Positions 54,952 to 63,143 of a stretch of DNA of 64,000 bases are shown in pieces. Position 1 is the stretch's first letter. Each line of letters begins with the position of its first letter. The DNA comes from Ignavibacteria bacterium. Lineage in GTDB: Bacteria > Bacteroidota > Ignavibacteria > Ignavibacteriales > Ignavibacteriaceae. The translations under genes were made by a program, and so were the position numbers. The stretch covers positions 62,001-126,000 of the forward strand of contig JAJTBZ010000097.1 in NCBI GenBank assembly GCA_021286645.1. Direction: 5' to 3'. The notes beneath the pieces are model-generated. The model did not search any database, had not been told where the DNA came from, and was given only the letters and a program-made list of their open reading frames with translations.

Positions 54952-57429
54952 ATGAAGAAATTAAACAGATTCATGGTGTTGCTCTTTGCAGTATGCTTAA
55001 GTGGCATATTGTACGCGCAAGTTCCTGCTCCTGCCAACCTGGCGGTTGTACAGGAAGGCGGCACACAGTGGGTAGATGCGAAACTTACCTGGACAGCCCC
55101 AACCGGGGTTACCGGAGTGAAGTACACCGTTTACCGTAAAGACGGTGCTGTGGCCGATACAGGTGCTTTCAAAAAATACACATCCGGTATTTATCAGACC
55201 AACTTTGTTGACCAGTGGGTTACCCGCGGTAAAACGTATTCTTATTACGTGGTTGCAACAAAAGGAACGCAGAACAGTCCAAATTCTGATACCGTTCAAC
55301 TGGCCGTAACTGAAATTCAGTATGGTTATATAGCAGGTACGGTTACCAAAGAAGGCGCTGCTACACCTTTGGTAAAAGCGTATGTTAAAGTTATTCCTTT
55401 GGATTGGAATGCCGGCCCGGTTGATGGTTTATCAGCACAAACAGACAGCCTTGGTAACTTCAAGGTGAAAGTACTGCCTGGTAAATTCACGCTGTATTAT
55501 TCAGCTGAAGGCATGGTTCCGGAATATTATAATGATAAAGCTTCATTCGACTTAGCAGATACATTAGCTGTTGCTGCAAATGAAACCAAAACTGCAAGTG
55601 CAGCTTTAGCAGCAATTGCTCCTCCGGCTGCTCCTGTTAATCTTACCGCGGTTGCTGTTTCGCAAGGTAACCATATTGGTATTAAATTAGCATGGGCTAC
55701 TGCCAAGCATTGGTCAGATGTAACCTATATCGTATATCGTAAAGACGGTGGATTGAATGATACCGCCGCTTACAAGAAATACGATTGGGGTTTTATGGAC
55801 ACAACATATAACGACAACTGGGTTGTTCGTGGTAAAGTGTATTCATATTACGTAGTTGCTGCAAAAGGTAATTTGGTAAGTGATCCTTCCAATAAAGTTG
55901 AAGCTTCAGTTGCACCTCTTGCCTACGCAACTATTTATGGTAAGGTAACCAATGAAACATCGGGTGCCCCCATTGTAAAAGCACGCGTTCAGGTATTAGC
56001 TGCTACTTCTGCCGGCACACCGGCTGAAGGCTGCGCGCTCTATACCGATTCACTTGGTAATTACAAAGCTAAAGTAGCGGTAGGTACATACGTAGTGTAT
56101 TTCAGTGCTACCGGCATGATTTCGGAATATTATGACAATCAGGCTACTTTGCAGACTGCCAATAAAATTGCCGTTGTTGCAAATGATAGTGTAGCCGCAA
56201 ATGCTGCATTGGGTACCTTTGTTCCTCCGCCAACATATTATGTAAGCGGTAAAGTTACCAATAATGCAAATGTTGCTATGCGTGCAAATGTAACAGTTTT
56301 CAAATTACGCAGTAATACATTCCAGTATTATGCAAACGCTGCAAGAACAGACAGCCTTGGCGGTTATAAGATTAAAGTTAAAAAAGGCGATACATTAGTT
56401 GTATTCGCTCAGCCTTTGGATTATAACTACCTTCCTCAGTATTACAACCTGAAAAAAACGTTTGCTGAAGCAGACAGGGTTGTTGTAGCAGATAATGTTA
56501 CCGATATTAACTTTGTATTGGAACATAAGCCGGTATATCCTAATGGCATTAGCGGTGCAGTAAAAGATTCAGCAGGCCTCGGTATTGCAGCCCACGTTTC
56601 AGCTTACAAGCTGAAGGCAACCGGACAGGTTGAAAAAACATATGCTGTATTAGCAGATACTTTAGGTGTTTACTCATTTACGAACCTGTTACCAGGTAAG
56701 TACATTCTTCGTGTAGTTCCTATGAATGATTACCGTGCCACTTATTTCCGTTATGATGGCACCCAGGCACAGGATCGCAAAAAAGCTGATTCTGTAATGG
56801 TTGATTCTGCAGTTGTAGTTAACAACATTAACTTTGTTGTTGCACCCCGTACCAGCAGCGGTCATGGCCACATTACCGGTACAGTAAAGAATCTTTCACG
56901 TGAAGTTATTAACGGTGCATTCATGTACGCTCTCGACCAAAATGGTCAGGTAGCTTCATATGCAATTACCGATAAAAACGGTAATTATGAAATTGCCGAT
57001 CTGGCTCCCGGAATGTACTCAGTAGTTTCAGACATTCTTGGTTACAAACAATATGTTGCAGTTGATGTATCTATTGATTATGTAGCAAATTCAGAAAAAG
57101 TGCTGGCAGTTACTGTTACACCTGAAACCTACGGTACCAACGCTGTTATCGATAGCAAAGTTCCTACTTCATTTGTATTGAATCAGAACTATCCGAATCC
57201 ATTCAACCCCACAACAACCATATCCTACGCCATACCTGAAAAGATGCATGTTCGTCTTGCAGTTTATGATATGTTAGGACGTGAAGTTGCAGTTCTTGTT
57301 GATCAGGATCAGTCAGCTCAGAATTACCGTGTTGAATTTAACGCGGCAAAACTTTCATCAGGTATCTATTTCTACAAATTAGATGCTGGTAAATATTCTG
57401 TTACCAAAAAACTCACACTGATGAAATAA
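54952..57429 (+). CDS. Secreted multi-domain protein with Fn3-like and carboxypeptidase-regulatory-like modules and type IX sorting domain
   Basis: An 825-residue protein. Signal peptide MKKLNRFMVLLFAVCLSGIL; two Fn3-like modules (about residues 25-120 and 228-320; KYTVYRKDG and TYIVYRKDG mark both); five carboxypeptidase-regulatory-like beta-sandwiches (for example GTVTKEGAATPLVKAYVKV, TDSLGNYKAKV, GTVKNLSREVINGAF); and the type-A sorting domain (LNQNYPNPFNPTTTISYAI, YKLDAGKYSVTKKLTLMK). The modules suggest adhesion or scaffolding; no catalytic motif is seen. Expected outside the cell or on its surface. Confidence 0.85.
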   Translation: MKKLNRFMVLLFAVCLSGILYAQVPAPANLAVVQEGGTQWVDAKLTWTAPTGVTGVKYTVYRKDGAVADTGAFKKYTSGIYQTNFVDQWVTRGKTYSYYVVATKGTQNSPNSDTVQLAVTEIQYGYIAGTVTKEGAATPLVKAYVKVIPLDWNAGPVDGLSAQTDSLGNFKVKVLPGKFTLYYSAEGMVPEYYNDKASFDLADTLAVAANETKTASAALAAIAPPAAPVNLTAVAVSQGNHIGIKLAWATAKHWSDVTYIVYRKDGGLNDTAAYKKYDWGFMDTTYNDNWVVRGKVYSYYVVAAKGNLVSDPSNKVEASVAPLAYATIYGKVTNETSGAPIVKARVQVLAATSAGTPAEGCALYTDSLGNYKAKVAVGTYVVYFSATGMISEYYDNQATLQTANKIAVVANDSVAANAALGTFVPPPTYYVSGKVTNNANVAMRANVTVFKLRSNTFQYYANAARTDSLGGYKIKVKKGDTLVVFAQPLDYNYLPQYYNLKKTFAEADRVVVADNVTDINFVLEHKPVYPNGISGAVKDSAGLGIAAHVSAYKLKATGQVEKTYAVLADTLGVYSFTNLLPGKYILRVVPMNDYRATYFRYDGTQAQDRKKADSVMVDSAVVVNNINFVVAPRTSSGHGHITGTVKNLSREVINGAFMYALDQNGQVASYAITDKNGNYEIADLAPGMYSVVSDILGYKQYVAVDVSIDYVANSEKVLAVTVTPETYGTNAVIDSKVPTSFVLNQNYPNPFNPTTTISYAIPEKMHVRLAVYDMLGREVAVLVDQDQSAQNYRVEFNAAKLSSGIYFYKLDAGKYSVTKKLTLMK

Positions 57430-57497: not shown

Positions 57498-58346
57498 TTA
57501 TTTTTTAAATACGAGGCAGATCCATTCATCGAGCGCGTCTTTATCGAGGAATGAGACACCCGCGGATGTGAATTTATTGACAATATCAGTTTCATCCTGA
57601 TGTAATAACCCCGAGAGAATGATAGTGCCACCCAGCCTGGTTTTTGCAATAAGCGCATCACAAATTTCCAATAGTACATTCTTCTGAATATTGGCGAGAG
57701 TTAAGTCGAATTCTGATTCACTCACACCATAAATATCCGCGGTGCGTATTTCCACCTGTTGCCGGCTTACATCATTCATTGCGCAGTTTTCCAACCCGTT
57801 ATCGTAACACCAATCGTCATTATCAATGGCAAGTGCGTATTGGGCACCGAGTTTAACAGCTGCAATGGCTAATACACCGGTTCCCGTACCCACATCGATA
57901 AGGCGAATCCCGGGATTAACATATTTTTCAAGTGTGCGAAGGACTAGTTTTGTAGTTTGGTGTTCACCCGTTCCAAAAGACATTTTCGGATCGATAACCA
58001 AAACTATTTCACCGGGAACGGCATTATATTCCTTGAAGCTGGGTCGGATGGTAATTTTATCGGTAACTTTAATTATGTTTAAAGATCTTTCCCACTCCTC
58101 GTTCCAATTTCGGTTTTCGAGAACAGCTTCTTCAAGAGTATAGCTATCGATGAGATTTCTTTCCTGCAACTCATCAAGGAAGCGTGTTGTTTTGGTTACA
58201 GCATCGGCTTCCTGAAAGAACAACTTAATAAAAAGTTCACCTTCTTCGAGGCCAATGGGGTTAAGTTCCCACAATAGTCCGGAAAGTTCTTCCATATCGA
58301 AGGGTGAAGTCTTTACAATTAATTCTGTGTAAAATTTATTTGGCAT
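57498..58346 (-). CDS. prmA: Ribosomal protein L11 methyltransferase
   Basis: A 282-residue SAM-dependent enzyme that methylates L11. N-terminal substrate-recognition domain (residues 1-80) and Rossmann domain with DPKMSFGTGEHQTT, LIDVGTGTGVLAIAAVKLGA and LANIQKNVLLE (the NPPF-like position). It lies nine bases after the P450-like gene in the same direction. Confidence 0.92.
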   Translation of the reverse strand: MPNKFYTELIVKTSPFDMEELSGLLWELNPIGLEEGELFIKLFFQEADAVTKTTRFLDELQERNLIDSYTLEEAVLENRNWNEEWERSLNIIKVTDKITIRPSFKEYNAVPGEIVLVIDPKMSFGTGEHQTTKLVLRTLEKYVNPGIRLIDVGTGTGVLAIAAVKLGAQYALAIDNDDWCYDNGLENCAMNDVSRQQVEIRTADIYGVSESEFDLTLANIQKNVLLEICDALIAKTRLGGTIILSGLLHQDETDIVNKFTSAGVSFLDKDALDEWICLVFKK

Positions 58347-58355
58347 ATATATCCC

Positions 58356-59702
58356 TTATTTATTACGTCTTTCAACTTTTGTAAACAACAGTTCTTTCGC
58401 GTGCAGAACAGGGGCTCCGGTAAGCTCGGGGGATTGTTTCTTATAGAACAATACGCGCGATTTATGTATAATCTGCACAAGTGTATATATTATTTCATAT
58501 CGGGCAAGTTCAGCTCCGGGCAGGCTATAGGCACCAAATTCGTAAGGTATCAGCCTGGAGCTGAGCTCTTTTTGATTGACGAATCTTTCCGGATTAAAAC
58601 TAAGAGGATCTTTCCCGAAACTGTTATTCCGGTGTAAAATCCATGGAGCAATGATAATCCAGCTATCTGCAGGAATCAGAATTTCACCAATTTTATCTGA
58701 ATCTGCCGCGAAACGTTGTAAAATCCAATGCGGGGGGTACAGGCGTTCAGTTTCAAATATTATAGATTGCAGTAACGGAAACATTGTGGCATAATCCGCC
58801 GGTGTGTTTGCATTTTCAATAGCTGCATCAACCTCAGTTTCCACTTTCTTTTTTAATCCGGGGGTGGTGTCAATGTTATGCAATACCAGGGTAATTGTTT
58901 CGGCCAGTGAAAAAGTGCACGCGTAGAGAATGGTTTTAACCTGATCGATTACCTGTTGATAAGTAATAGATTTGTTCCGGTATGCTGTATATAATACTTG
59001 CAGGAAAGTGCCACGGTCGCTGGTTACTTGCATAAAATCAGAACCGATATGGTCAACCATATCATCAAAAAATGTAATAGCCTCGCTGACAAATTGGGGC
59101 GTGTTTTTTAGTAGAGCAGCTTGTGCTGGTTTTCCGGCACATTTTTCTCTCAGCTTTATTATGTTGGGCAAGCTGTTGAAATCGAGTATATCCTGTAATG
59201 CTTCATGAAGTGAATCAGCGTTGATTTCCAAACCGGAAGCTATAAAATTCCGGGCGGTAAAGCGAATGATCAGGCGCAGCATTTCCGTTTCAATATTCAG
59301 TTTGTCATACGTGCCGCGTTTCTGAAACATTTCAGCGAACATCGAGTCAATTTCTTCCTGCATAACGGTAGTATACCCGGCAAACTGTTCGGGTTGAAAG
59401 GCGGGATGCAATAAATCGCGCATCAGCAGAAAATCTTCGGGCTCTGCCCGGAGAATGCTTTTGCCAAGCAATGGAGCAAGCGGATCTATTAAATCATTTG
59501 GTTTGTAATAGTCGGGTGTCCTTTCAAGAATTGAAAGTGCTGCCTCGGAATTATTTATAAAATAAGCCTGTTTATCGGCAATTTTTAATTGAATAACATC
59601 GCCGTCAAGCGCGGCAATTTTAGTAAGCGCCTCGAAGGGGTTCTTTTTTAATTGAGAACGAATACTCATTGCTGAAAAAAAAGATGGAGATAGTAATTTC
59701 AT
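58356..59702 (-). CDS. Cytochrome P450-like protein lacking the heme-ligand cysteine
   Basis: A 448-residue protein with the P450 fold in order: LLMRDLLHPAF (C-helix region), an I-helix-like ACTFSLAETITLVLHN, the K-helix ExxR as FETERLYPPHW, ILHRN, and FNPERF. Where the heme loop should read FGGGPRxCxG, the sequence is FGAYSLPGAELARYE (about residues 389-402): two residues shorter, with neither the cysteine nor the arginine. The frame is intact across the gene, so this is not a simple frameshift. Either heme is bound in another way or the protein has lost monooxygenase activity. It lies between prmA and a class II photolyase. Confidence 0.8.
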   Translation of the reverse strand: MKLLSPSFFSAMSIRSQLKKNPFEALTKIAALDGDVIQLKIADKQAYFINNSEAALSILERTPDYYKPNDLIDPLAPLLGKSILRAEPEDFLLMRDLLHPAFQPEQFAGYTTVMQEEIDSMFAEMFQKRGTYDKLNIETEMLRLIIRFTARNFIASGLEINADSLHEALQDILDFNSLPNIIKLREKCAGKPAQAALLKNTPQFVSEAITFFDDMVDHIGSDFMQVTSDRGTFLQVLYTAYRNKSITYQQVIDQVKTILYACTFSLAETITLVLHNIDTTPGLKKKVETEVDAAIENANTPADYATMFPLLQSIIFETERLYPPHWILQRFAADSDKIGEILIPADSWIIIAPWILHRNNSFGKDPLSFNPERFVNQKELSSRLIPYEFGAYSLPGAELARYEIIYTLVQIIHKSRVLFYKKQSPELTGAPVLHAKELLFTKVERRNK

Positions 59703-59745: not shown

Positions 59746-61089
59746 CTATTTTTTTAATAGAAGTGTATCGACGAAATGAATATAAGAAGATACGTCGAAT
59801 TTTCTTTTACACCCCGATTCATTCATATACCGAATCATGCCAAAGACGGGGCGTTCGCTCCAGGGGCGGTCATGTACCCCGCCAATAGACCAGGCGCAAC
59901 CTGTGTAGCCGTTTGGATCTCTTCCGTCAAGTTGGTACATGTTATTTAGCGTTATGGAAGTATGCAAAGCGGAGGCAGCATCTACTGACCATTCAAGAAT
60001 TTTTTTTGCCCAGTACATTCGAAGATAGCCTGGCATGCTACCCGTTGTAACCATCTGCAACTGTGCGGCGTTCCAAAGTTTGTCATGCGTAAGCCCATCG
60101 CGGAACTGCTCGAAGGAATAGATGTAATCTCTCGGATCATTTGCATGTTTATCCAATGTGGCTCGGGCCCATTCGGGGAAGCCCTCAACAGAGTCGTAAT
60201 TCCGGTTGAAATAGCAAAAATTATCTGCCAATTCACGGCGCACGATCAGTTCTTCAAGAAATGCTTCGGAGCTTTCAGAAGGAGTAACCGCCTGTTTAAC
60301 CAGTAATACAACTCTCTGTGCTGCAATATGGCCAAAATGAAGATACGGCGATAAACCGGAAGTCGCATTCGCGATCGGGTTATTTTTAGCTGTGCTATAT
60401 TTTTCAAGTGATTGAATAAATGCCTGTAATTTTGCCGAAGCAGCCGATTCTCCCGGTACGGGGTAGTAAGGGGAAACGGTATTGCTTTGGTCAAATTGTT
60501 CCGGGGCGGATGTGCCCAAATCTGTTGCGGCAAAGTAGTTCTGTACCGGTAATGCCGGAAAATCCTCCAGGAATTCGGGAAGCCTTCTATGTATTTTAGG
60601 CCTGATAGTATATGCCCCGTATTCTGTTTTATCGGAAGTGAGCAGACAGGGAACAATATTGTGAGCATCCACTTCGTAAAAGGGGATATTTATATTTTTT
60701 GCAATCTCTCTTTTCCAAATTCGCTTAATTTTTAACGGATCAAAATCCGAAATAAGGACTGAAATATCCAGTTGAGATATACATTCGGGAATCGACTCCT
60801 CCGGTTCGCCGGGAAGTAAAAGGAACGGGTATCCGGAATTAAGCAGGGTTGCACGAGTTTCATTGAGGCCTTGCAGCATAAACGTAAAATACGCGGGGGG
60901 CGCGTTAAGGAACCGGTTCGTAACCGAAAACGCGATTATGACACCCGTTTGAAGTTCTTTTGCAATTTGTACGGCAAACAATAATGCCCAATTATCGTGT
61001 GCCCGTTGATCACGACTCATCCAATACATAACGGGGCCTTGTTTTTGTATCCCTTTTTGTAAAAGTCGTACTCGTTTTGGATTTACCAC
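59746..61089 (-). CDS. phr: Class II deoxyribodipyrimidine (CPD) photolyase
   Basis: A 447-residue flavoprotein that splits cyclobutane pyrimidine dimers with light. Class II motifs: VMYWMSRDQRAHDNWAL, VDAHNIVPC, SGLSPYLHFGHIAAQRV, RRELADNFCYFNRNYD, GYLRMYWAKKILEW and LDGRDPNGYTGCAWSIGG. The GTG start at 61089 keeps the NPKRVRLL N-terminus that class II enzymes share. It lies upstream of the P450-like gene with a 43-bp gap, so they may be co-transcribed. Confidence 0.93.
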   Translation of the reverse strand: MVNPKRVRLLQKGIQKQGPVMYWMSRDQRAHDNWALLFAVQIAKELQTGVIIAFSVTNRFLNAPPAYFTFMLQGLNETRATLLNSGYPFLLLPGEPEESIPECISQLDISVLISDFDPLKIKRIWKREIAKNINIPFYEVDAHNIVPCLLTSDKTEYGAYTIRPKIHRRLPEFLEDFPALPVQNYFAATDLGTSAPEQFDQSNTVSPYYPVPGESAASAKLQAFIQSLEKYSTAKNNPIANATSGLSPYLHFGHIAAQRVVLLVKQAVTPSESSEAFLEELIVRRELADNFCYFNRNYDSVEGFPEWARATLDKHANDPRDYIYSFEQFRDGLTHDKLWNAAQLQMVTTGSMPGYLRMYWAKKILEWSVDAASALHTSITLNNMYQLDGRDPNGYTGCAWSIGGVHDRPWSERPVFGMIRYMNESGCKRKFDVSSYIHFVDTLLLKK

Positions 61090-61231: not shown

Positions 61232-61738
61232 TTAGCGTACTTCCGGCATGTCTGGTTTGGGCATGGGAGGGTGCTTCATGCCGTCGCATTGTGGTGGTCG
61301 TTGCATGTCATTATGATGCGGGGGACATGCATCGAATGCGGCACGCTGATCTTCAGATAACACTTTACGAATATCCTGTTGGCATCGCATCTCTGCTTTT
61401 TTTATAGCAGTTTTGTTGCTGCCGATTTCTTCAATTATTTTATCCAAAACTGCCAATGATGGGGCATCTTTTGTAGCTTCGGTACGTAACGAGGCTTCTA
61501 ACTCACCTATCTTATTTTGCAGCGGGAGAACAGTTTTCTGTAAAGACATATGCAGTTTTTTTATCTGTTCAGCCTGTTGAGCCGTAAGGCCCTCTATTGG
61601 CAGTGGGGGCGGGGGAGCCGGTTGATTAACCTCTATATCATGGGACCTCGCCGGTGCTTTATGTTCTTTCATTTGCGCGGACAATACAACTGTACCCAAG
61701 AGTACAATTATTGCAAGTTTACTGAGTCGGGATTTCAT
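61232..61738 (-). CDS. Spy/CpxP-like periplasmic protein
   Basis: A 168-residue protein with signal peptide (MKSRLSKLAIIVLLGTVVLS), a Pro-rich segment, and a helical core with LTAQQAEQIKKL and LSEDQRAAFDACPPHH, the LTxxQ-like pattern of Spy/CpxP proteins. The tail is rich in His, Met, Cys and Pro, which suggests metal binding (inference). It is the last gene of the ECF sigma operon. Confidence 0.75.
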   Translation of the reverse strand: MKSRLSKLAIIVLLGTVVLSAQMKEHKAPARSHDIEVNQPAPPPPLPIEGLTAQQAEQIKKLHMSLQKTVLPLQNKIGELEASLRTEATKDAPSLAVLDKIIEEIGSNKTAIKKAEMRCQQDIRKVLSEDQRAAFDACPPHHNDMQRPPQCDGMKHPPMPKPDMPEVR

Positions 61739-61765
61739 AACGCTTCCTTTTCGTTAATATAAGAT

Positions 61766-62272
61766 TTATCGGTTCATTGGCCCTTCGCCCGGATGAGCCG
61801 GCAATATCCGGGGCGGGGGCATTTTAGTAAACATTTCTGTTAGAACTTTATCAAATTTTTCAACCTGCTCTGGCTGCAGGTATGACCGGAGACGGATAAA
61901 GTGATGCATAGTCTCGCGATCCAGCTCAAGCATAAGTGCACAGGCTTTTCTGTAACATTCCATCGCCTGGGCGGTATCGGGGTTCGTACCGGTAATAAAT
62001 TTATATCCGTCGCTTTTCAGTTTCTGAGCTTCTTCATGCGCATCTTTAATTTTTGCAAAATGATGTTCCTGCTCGGTTCTAAACTGATCGCGCTGTTGCC
62101 CGGAGAGGTTCAATTCCCGTGCGATAAACTCTTCAGGCGGCAGTGGAGGGGGGGGGGCGCCATGTGGGGGCCGTGGCCCGCCAAACCACATTGTTGCCAT
62201 AAGGGCAACATTCATTATAATAAGAATGCCTGTAATTGTAATTAGTACCTTGTTTTTCTTCAATAAATCCAT
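61766..62272 (-). CDS. Membrane-anchored Spy/CnrX-like metal or stress sensor
   Basis: A 168-residue protein with one N-terminal membrane helix (VLITITGILIIMNVALMATM), a Pro-rich linker, and a periplasmic helical domain with LNLSGQQRDQFRTEQEHHF and LQPEQVEKFDKVL, as in heavy-metal-resistance sensors of the CnrX/ZraP type. Paired His residues (EHHF, MHHF) could bind metal. A tract of ten C codes for the proline run, where slippage would shift the frame. Probably senses a periplasmic signal for the sigma factor (inference). Confidence 0.72.
   Translation of the reverse strand: MDLLKKNKVLITITGILIIMNVALMATMWFGGPRPPHGAPPPPLPPEEFIARELNLSGQQRDQFRTEQEHHFAKIKDAHEEAQKLKSDGYKFITGTNPDTAQAMECYRKACALMLELDRETMHHFIRLRSYLQPEQVEKFDKVLTEMFTKMPPPRILPAHPGEGPMNR
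62148..62157. repeat. G10 (C10 in coding sense) homopolymer inside the sensor gene
   Basis: Ten G in a row on the plus strand, coding for the Pro run of the membrane-anchored sensor just after its membrane helix. Tracts of this length slip easily during replication and sequencing. Confidence 0.85.
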
Positions 62273-62282
62273 GGTAAATACC

Positions 62283-62567
62283 TTAGTAATTAAAATACTT
62301 ATTGCTTATAGCGGTTATGGTGCTTGTACGGGTATCTGCGACAGTATTTTGTGTATGAAGATTCTTAATAACAGTAACAACATTAAAACATACCAGTAAC
62401 AGAACGCAAATGTACATAGCCAGGCGTGGTTTTAGGTTTGCCTGCTTTTGTTTTGAGCGCAGTTCAATAGCTGCAACCACACGAGTAGCGAACCACGGGT
62501 CGAATTTCGGGTTCGGTTGATTGTCAAGGTTTTGTAAAATATCATCAGTTGAATCATTCTTTTTCAT
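62283..62567 (-). CDS. Small single-pass membrane protein, possible anti-sigma factor
   Basis: A 94-residue protein: about 45 cytoplasmic residues (FDPWFATRVVAAIELRSKQK), one membrane helix (LAMYICVLLLVCFNVVTVI) and a short outside tail. It lies 18 bases after the sigma gene, the usual place for an anti-sigma factor, and the FxxRVxxAI pattern is common in such short proteins. No zinc motif is seen. The function is inferred from context only. Confidence 0.6.
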   Translation of the reverse strand: MKKNDSTDDILQNLDNQPNPKFDPWFATRVVAAIELRSKQKQANLKPRLAMYICVLLLVCFNVVTVIKNLHTQNTVADTRTSTITAISNKYFNY

Positions 62568-62585
62568 ATATAACCTTTGTAGTTC

Positions 62586-63143
62586 TTACTTGCCTGTAAG
62601 TTGTTGCCGTAAATTTTGCTTAGCCCGGTGTAATAAAGATTCCACCGCCGGAACGGTGCTATGTAAAGTTTCTGCAACTTCCTGGTATGAAAGCCCCTCA
62701 ACTTTTGTGAGCAGGAAGGCAGCCCGTTGGTTTTCCGGAAGCCTGTCTATAGCTGCGTACAGTATCCTTCGTTTCTCATCCTCTGAGTACACTGCTTCGG
62801 GATTGTTCTTGTAATCCCGTAGGGCATTAGGCATAACCACTTTACCGGATAGATATTCTTTAATCCGGATTATCCGTTTCTTTCTCGCGGCTGATCGCTG
62901 AAAATCGATGCAGCGCGAAACGGCAATCTGGTAGATCCAGGTTGAAAGCTTGGATTTACCTTTAAATCCGTGAATTCCCTTAAAAACTTCAATGAACACA
63001 GTTTGAGCAATATCTTCGGCATCTTCTTTGGCGAACGCGAATTTGGATGTAATAGAGCGTACCATAACCTGGTACTCATTAATCAGGTGCGTAAAAGCCT
63101 CTCTGTCGCCTGATCGAAGTTTCTCTATTAATTCCTGTTCCAT
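62586..63143 (-). CDS. ECF-type RNA polymerase sigma factor
   Basis: A 185-residue sigma-70 family protein. Region 2: EYQVMVRSITSKFAFAKEDA, EDIAQTVFIEVFKGI and STWIYQIAVSRCID. Region 4: LPENQRAAFLLTKVEGLSYQ, EVAETLHSTVPAVESLLHRA. No region 3 and no extra domain, which fits the ECF group. It begins an operon with a small membrane protein and two Spy-like proteins, so an envelope or metal stress response is likely (inference). Confidence 0.92.
   Translation of the reverse strand: MEQELIEKLRSGDREAFTHLINEYQVMVRSITSKFAFAKEDAEDIAQTVFIEVFKGIHGFKGKSKLSTWIYQIAVSRCIDFQRSAARKKRIIRIKEYLSGKVVMPNALRDYKNNPEAVYSEDEKRRILYAAIDRLPENQRAAFLLTKVEGLSYQEVAETLHSTVPAVESLLHRAKQNLRQQLTGK

Follow-up and report, generated by a model that had tools for sequence, protein, structure and literature searches.

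The P450psi locus

The window is the whole 64,000-nucleotide stretch of Ignavibacteria DNA that was analysed. On its minus strand it carries a gene, which we named P450psi, for a protein with the fold of a cytochrome P450 that lacks the heme-site residues (Table 1). The gene is a single uninterrupted frame of 448 codons with no stop, as the original prediction had stated, and its product matches the Pfam p450 family over residues 8-428 (E=3.2e-37). P450psi is the sole P450 of the window genome (G000), which is 99% complete.

The gene order in G000 is photolyase, P450psi, prmA, and then a convergent gene for a T9SS protein. The photolyase had been assigned to class II, and NCBIfam phr2 indeed identifies it as class II-type (E=1e-164, 1 bit under the model cut-off). 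The protein convergent to prmA (54952-57429, plus strand) is an 825-residue repeat protein whose C-terminal sorting domain resembles those of type IX secretion (NQNYPNPFNPTTTISY...), and it is syntenic in G001, a congener of G000. The neighbourhood further contains, at 61232-63143 on the minus strand, an ECF-type sigma factor, then a short predicted membrane protein and two proteins of Metal_resist/LTXXQ type; together these likely form an envelope-stress or metal-response operon.

Table 1. Features of the P450psi locus, with positions in the window and residues of P450psi
Feature	Position	Strand	Basis
P450psi, P450-fold protein without heme-site residues, 448 aa	58356..59702	-	ORF, Pfam, predicted structure
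C-helix EDFLLMR (89-95); heme-propionate Trp replaced by Phe91	59418..59438	-	alignment
Clade-specific motif LEINAD (158-163); LEINxD in all four psi members, rare in Cys-bearing relatives	59214..59231	-	alignment
I-helix oxygen-activation motif lost: YACTFS (260-265) against FAGxDT in relatives	58908..58925	-	alignment
ExxR motif ETER (317-320), kept	58743..58754	-	alignment
PERF motif FNPERF (369-374), kept	58581..58598	-	alignment
Degenerate heme loop YEFGAYSLPG (387-396), full length; Leu394 at Cys position, Tyr392 at Arg/His position	58515..58544	-	alignment
prmA (ribosomal protein L11 methyltransferase), 9 nt downstream of P450psi; neighbour common to all four psi genes	57498..58346	-	
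Class II-type DNA photolyase, 43 nt upstream of P450psi; conserved in same genus only	59746..61089	-	

Heme site of the window protein

The structural modelling that had been suggested predicts a full P450 fold for the window protein (AlphaFold, pLDDT 87.9, pTM 0.91), and the PDB matches listed for the model are all P450s (TM 0.8-0.85). The best structure and profile matches are CYP97 (LUT5/CYP97C1), CYP184A1, CYP170A1, CYP102 and CYP3A (PDB), active heme-thiolate enzymes that are 15-20% identical to P450psi in structural alignments. Of the inner parts of the model, residues 371-390, which run up to and into the heme loop, have some of the lowest confidence. Both the ETER and the FNPERF motif are present, as the original prediction had reported.

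The window heme loop, IPYEFGAYSLPG, aligns without a gap to the IPFGQGPHxCxG of its relatives. The longer segment IPYEFGAYSLPGAELA aligns equally gaplessly to IPFGQGPHxCxGxRLA, with P386, G390 and G396 kept. Because the loop aligns in this way, Leu394 takes the place of the Cys and Tyr392 that of the His/Arg. The earlier description of a loop two residues short arose from an alignment slip, since IPYEFGAYSLPGAELA is full length against the closest relatives; the absence of both Cys and Arg was correctly recognized. The only cysteines of the protein are residues 188 and 262. The I-helix itself is present (248-279), as had been proposed, but its AGxDT motif is not, residues 261-265 reading ACTFS instead. 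P450psi accordingly has the fold and the ExxR and PERF motifs of a cytochrome P450, but neither the Cys of FxxGx(R/H)xCxG nor the I-helix (A/G)Gx(D/E)T. We infer that it has no heme-thiolate and no monooxygenase activity.

Cys-less orthologues in Ignavibacteriales

We looked for relatives in 59 close genomes, 80 genomes of the family, 164 of the order and 395 of the phylum. A search of the genome contigs with the window protein alone as query gave no match. The loop is normal in most of the family's P450s, with FGQGPHxCxG as its typical form, and a Cys loop was found in 84 of the 85 named P450 ORFs detected by profile, so that its absence is not a matter of chance. The sole exception belongs to G064, one of four Ignavibacteriales genomes, in two genera, with Cys-less orthologues: G000, G001, and the pair G013 and G064, which are congeners of each other. 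The loops of the other three orthologues read LPMGSVKASSEQF in G001, FSQGPRISIG in G013 (Cys to Ser) and FGYKEVSSFN in G064. The model of the G064 protein (pLDDT 78.9) falls below 50 in three inner segments: 99-115, ahead of the C helix; 212-226; and 422-426, in the heme loop.

The four Cys-less proteins form one clade (support 100/99), here called the psi clade, and the Cys loss is a single change on the tree. After the two long-branch members were removed, leaving G000 and G013, the support was still 99/99. Every sampled P450 outside this clade carries the Cys. P450psi is the only P450 in G000, G013 and G064, three of the four genomes; with no second P450 there, it is unlikely to assist another P450 of its own cell.

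The closest Cys-bearing relatives (e.g. L004, L005 and L007, with the FGQGPHxCxG loop) are about 22-29% identical to the window P450psi and resemble it in length and fold, but they keep the Cys, AGxDT and the C-helix Trp and do not lie beside prmA. On L004 (20-2835, minus strand; genome G003), two Cys-bearing P450s of the same group stand in tandem.

All four psi genes lie directly upstream of prmA. The stop of P450psi overlaps the start of prmA in G013, and the two genes are separated by about 17 nt in G064. G001 has the same order as G000, split over two contigs. P450psi is cut by the end of C11, which carries the photolyase before it, and by the start of C331, which continues with prmA and the T9SS protein, so that by synteny the two contigs would abut. 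None of the other 26 prmA loci examined, some of which end before the upstream gene, has a P450 upstream of prmA. The shared neighbour is prmA and not the photolyase, which is linked to P450psi in one genus only; in its place upstream stand an exonuclease III-type gene in G064 and an unassigned ORF beside a DNA methylase in G013.

These loci bear directly on the explanation that the window protein is a normal P450 damaged by a local deletion or assembly error in this genome alone. The original prediction had named this as its refuting case, to be recognized by close homologues with a normal loop, and had proposed aligning the loop with homologues from related genomes. In that alignment the syntenic orthologues also lack the Cys: three independently assembled genomes carry Cys-less orthologues at the same locus, and the window loop itself is full length with no deletion. 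We regard an error of this kind as having practically no chance of being the cause.

Constraint, rate and likely function

We compared conservation over 44 columns kept in at least 14 of 15 Cys-bearing relatives, 12 of which belong to the heme motifs. The three degenerate members retain the conserved residue in 6 of 36 cells of the heme-motif columns and in 53 of 96 cells of the other columns (Fisher p=5e-5). By region, the ratio of mean identity within the clade to that in Cys-bearing genera, a measure that partly reflects regression to the mean, is 0.28 for the C helix, 0.25 for the I-helix motif, 0.32 for the heme loop and 0.49 for the L helix, and 1.21 for D-F, 1.39 for G-H and 1.14 for the ExxR region. 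The ExxR and C-helix regions start from similar values in true P450s (0.45 and 0.44) and stand at 0.51 and 0.12 in the clade. The ExxR region, the F-G-H helices and the C-terminus are conserved in the clade at least as well as in true P450s. Moreover, all members of the clade share 17 residues, including L158, E159, I160, N161 and D163, that Cys-bearing relatives seldom have. The pattern of the clade is that of a heme site lost and a protein body retained.

Heme or another porphyrin might still be bound, with a different protein ligand or none (e.g. Tyr392 in the window protein, Ser in G013), and serve other chemistry. Such binding would be in line with the full-length loop, where a Tyr stands two residues ahead of the Cys site, and the host has ferrochelatase. 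Engineered Cys-to-Ser P450s retain heme, and the G013 protein keeps 8 of the 12 heme-motif columns, Cys to Ser being the sole change at its ligand position. But the Tyr is not conserved within the clade, conservation in the clade is lowest at the heme-site columns, and the window protein has lost the Arg/His, the C-helix Trp and AGxDT together. Because the heme-site residues vary among the four members and several heme-binding features were lost jointly, the altered cofactor site put forward in the original prediction finds no support for the window protein. Overall we consider non-Cys heme binding improbable, and from the residues present it appears less likely for the window protein than for that of G013, whose site is mostly intact with Ser.

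The G013 orthologue (L022:9681-11057, minus strand) has Ser at the heme-Cys position and keeps the C-helix Trp, the I-helix motif as AGFET, and the loop Arg. In its Ser for Cys it resembles the engineered P411 enzymes, and it is a candidate for a natural serine-ligated P450.

The psi proteins are only 30% (G000-G001) and 35% (G013-G064) identical within their genera, where prmA is 55% and 63% identical. The Cys-bearing P450s are 71-98% identical within genera whose prmA is 67-96% identical, so their evolutionary rate, unlike that of the psi clade, is about that of prmA. Since the Cys-less clade diverges far faster than prmA and the Cys-bearing P450s do not, the Cys loss accompanies a much higher rate. 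The earlier statement that the rest of the fold is well conserved thus holds for the predicted fold but not for the sequence, in view of the 30% identity to the same-genus orthologue. Among the psi genes codon position 3 is saturated (0.65-0.68 different), and position 2 differs at 0.35-0.42; with synonymous sites saturated, we used codon-position divergence in place of dN/dS as the gauge of selection.

Such a rate would also be expected if the gene were decaying under weak or no constraint after the Cys loss, the window frame being a lucky survivor held in register by the operon. Most genomes of the family have no related gene at the P450psi site, and G001 has lost the C-helix segment and has an in-frame TAA near the contig end (L025:41-43, nt 41-43 of contig C331), in a flanking frame that is otherwise coding-like. 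This TAA may be a genuine recent break or an error at the end of the contig, and it makes the evidence for decay in this one member weak but not negligible. Decay fits poorly, however, with three of the four frames being intact despite saturated synonymous positions; neutral drift at 0.3 changes per site would be expected to place about 17 stops in the gene. Nor does it fit a Cys loss common to two genera, or the retention of ExxR, PERF-region and E-H helix residues, including the 17 clade-specific ones. We consider decay unlikely, though it keeps more weight than the other alternatives.

We therefore favor the view that the gene probably encodes a P450-fold pseudoenzyme, whose Cys was lost in an ancestor and which selection has kept as a heme-free scaffold or binding protein. 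The original prediction of a selected pseudoenzyme instead of decay is best supported, by Cys-less orthologues in two genera, three of four intact frames, position 2 below the saturated position 3, and loss specific to the heme site, with the G001 TAA leaving some room for decay. The ancestor of at least two Ignavibacteriales genera would have had a true P450 with an FGQGPHxCxG loop upstream of prmA, and the Cys that ligates the heme of this P450 was then lost. Drift would afterwards have affected the remaining residues that contact the heme, together with part of the face for the redox partner (C helix, L helix), in three of the four lineages sampled, while the ExxR core and the framework of the E, F, G, H and I helices stayed under selection. 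The heme-free scaffold would most likely bind a protein or a ligand through the conserved E-F/G-H face with its LEINxD motif, and P450psi may be made together with PrmA from the closely spaced gene pair. PrmA is a candidate partner on the basis of gene order. A more specific version, in which the heme-free P450 fold is a dedicated partner of co-translated PrmA or of the L11 methylation step, a P450-derived regulator outside secondary metabolism, alongside a naturally serine-ligated G013 orthologue, is a long shot.

Well-documented Cys-less P450s are mainly glycosyltransferase helpers in actinobacterial antibiotic clusters. Among them, EryCII/DesVIII (TIGR04515) share with P450psi a P450 fold without the heme Cys and a kept K-helix and I-helix framework, and their activation of glycosyltransferases by contact suggests, by analogy, a possible parallel for P450psi. 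The heme region appears poorly ordered in both, with raised B-factors in EryCII (PMC3391682) and the lowest internal model confidence in P450psi. EryCII has no C and C' helices, whereas both are predicted in P450psi (88-102), and EryCII/DesVIII come from actinobacterial macrolide clusters, whereas P450psi arises inside an ignavibacterial P450 group. Membership in TIGR04515 was rejected: the window protein did not match the family model at E<=1, nor did anything in its genome at E<=10, the best clade member (P0003) scores 27 bits against a family cut-off of 343 bits, and no glycosyltransferase gene lies beside the window P450psi, which is flanked by the photolyase gene and prmA. EutEFG, a putatively inactive P450 complex of an actinobacterial terpene cluster with a suggested structural role (PMC11574762), is likened to P450psi by description, not sequence, both being proposed as structural and not catalytic. 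Searches of the literature for a Cys-less P450 lineage in Ignavibacteria, and for P450s naturally ligated by serine, brought up no directly relevant work.

The observation is broader than first noted, covering a small clade of Cys-less P450s in Ignavibacteria; P450-derived pseudoenzymes are already a known kind. If our reading is true, this would be a second independent lineage away from antibiotic clusters, implying that the P450 fold has been recruited more widely for non-heme work. Because one member has changed little beyond Cys to Ser and others are without the whole site, the psi clade provides an ordered, stepwise route from heme enzyme to pseudoenzyme.
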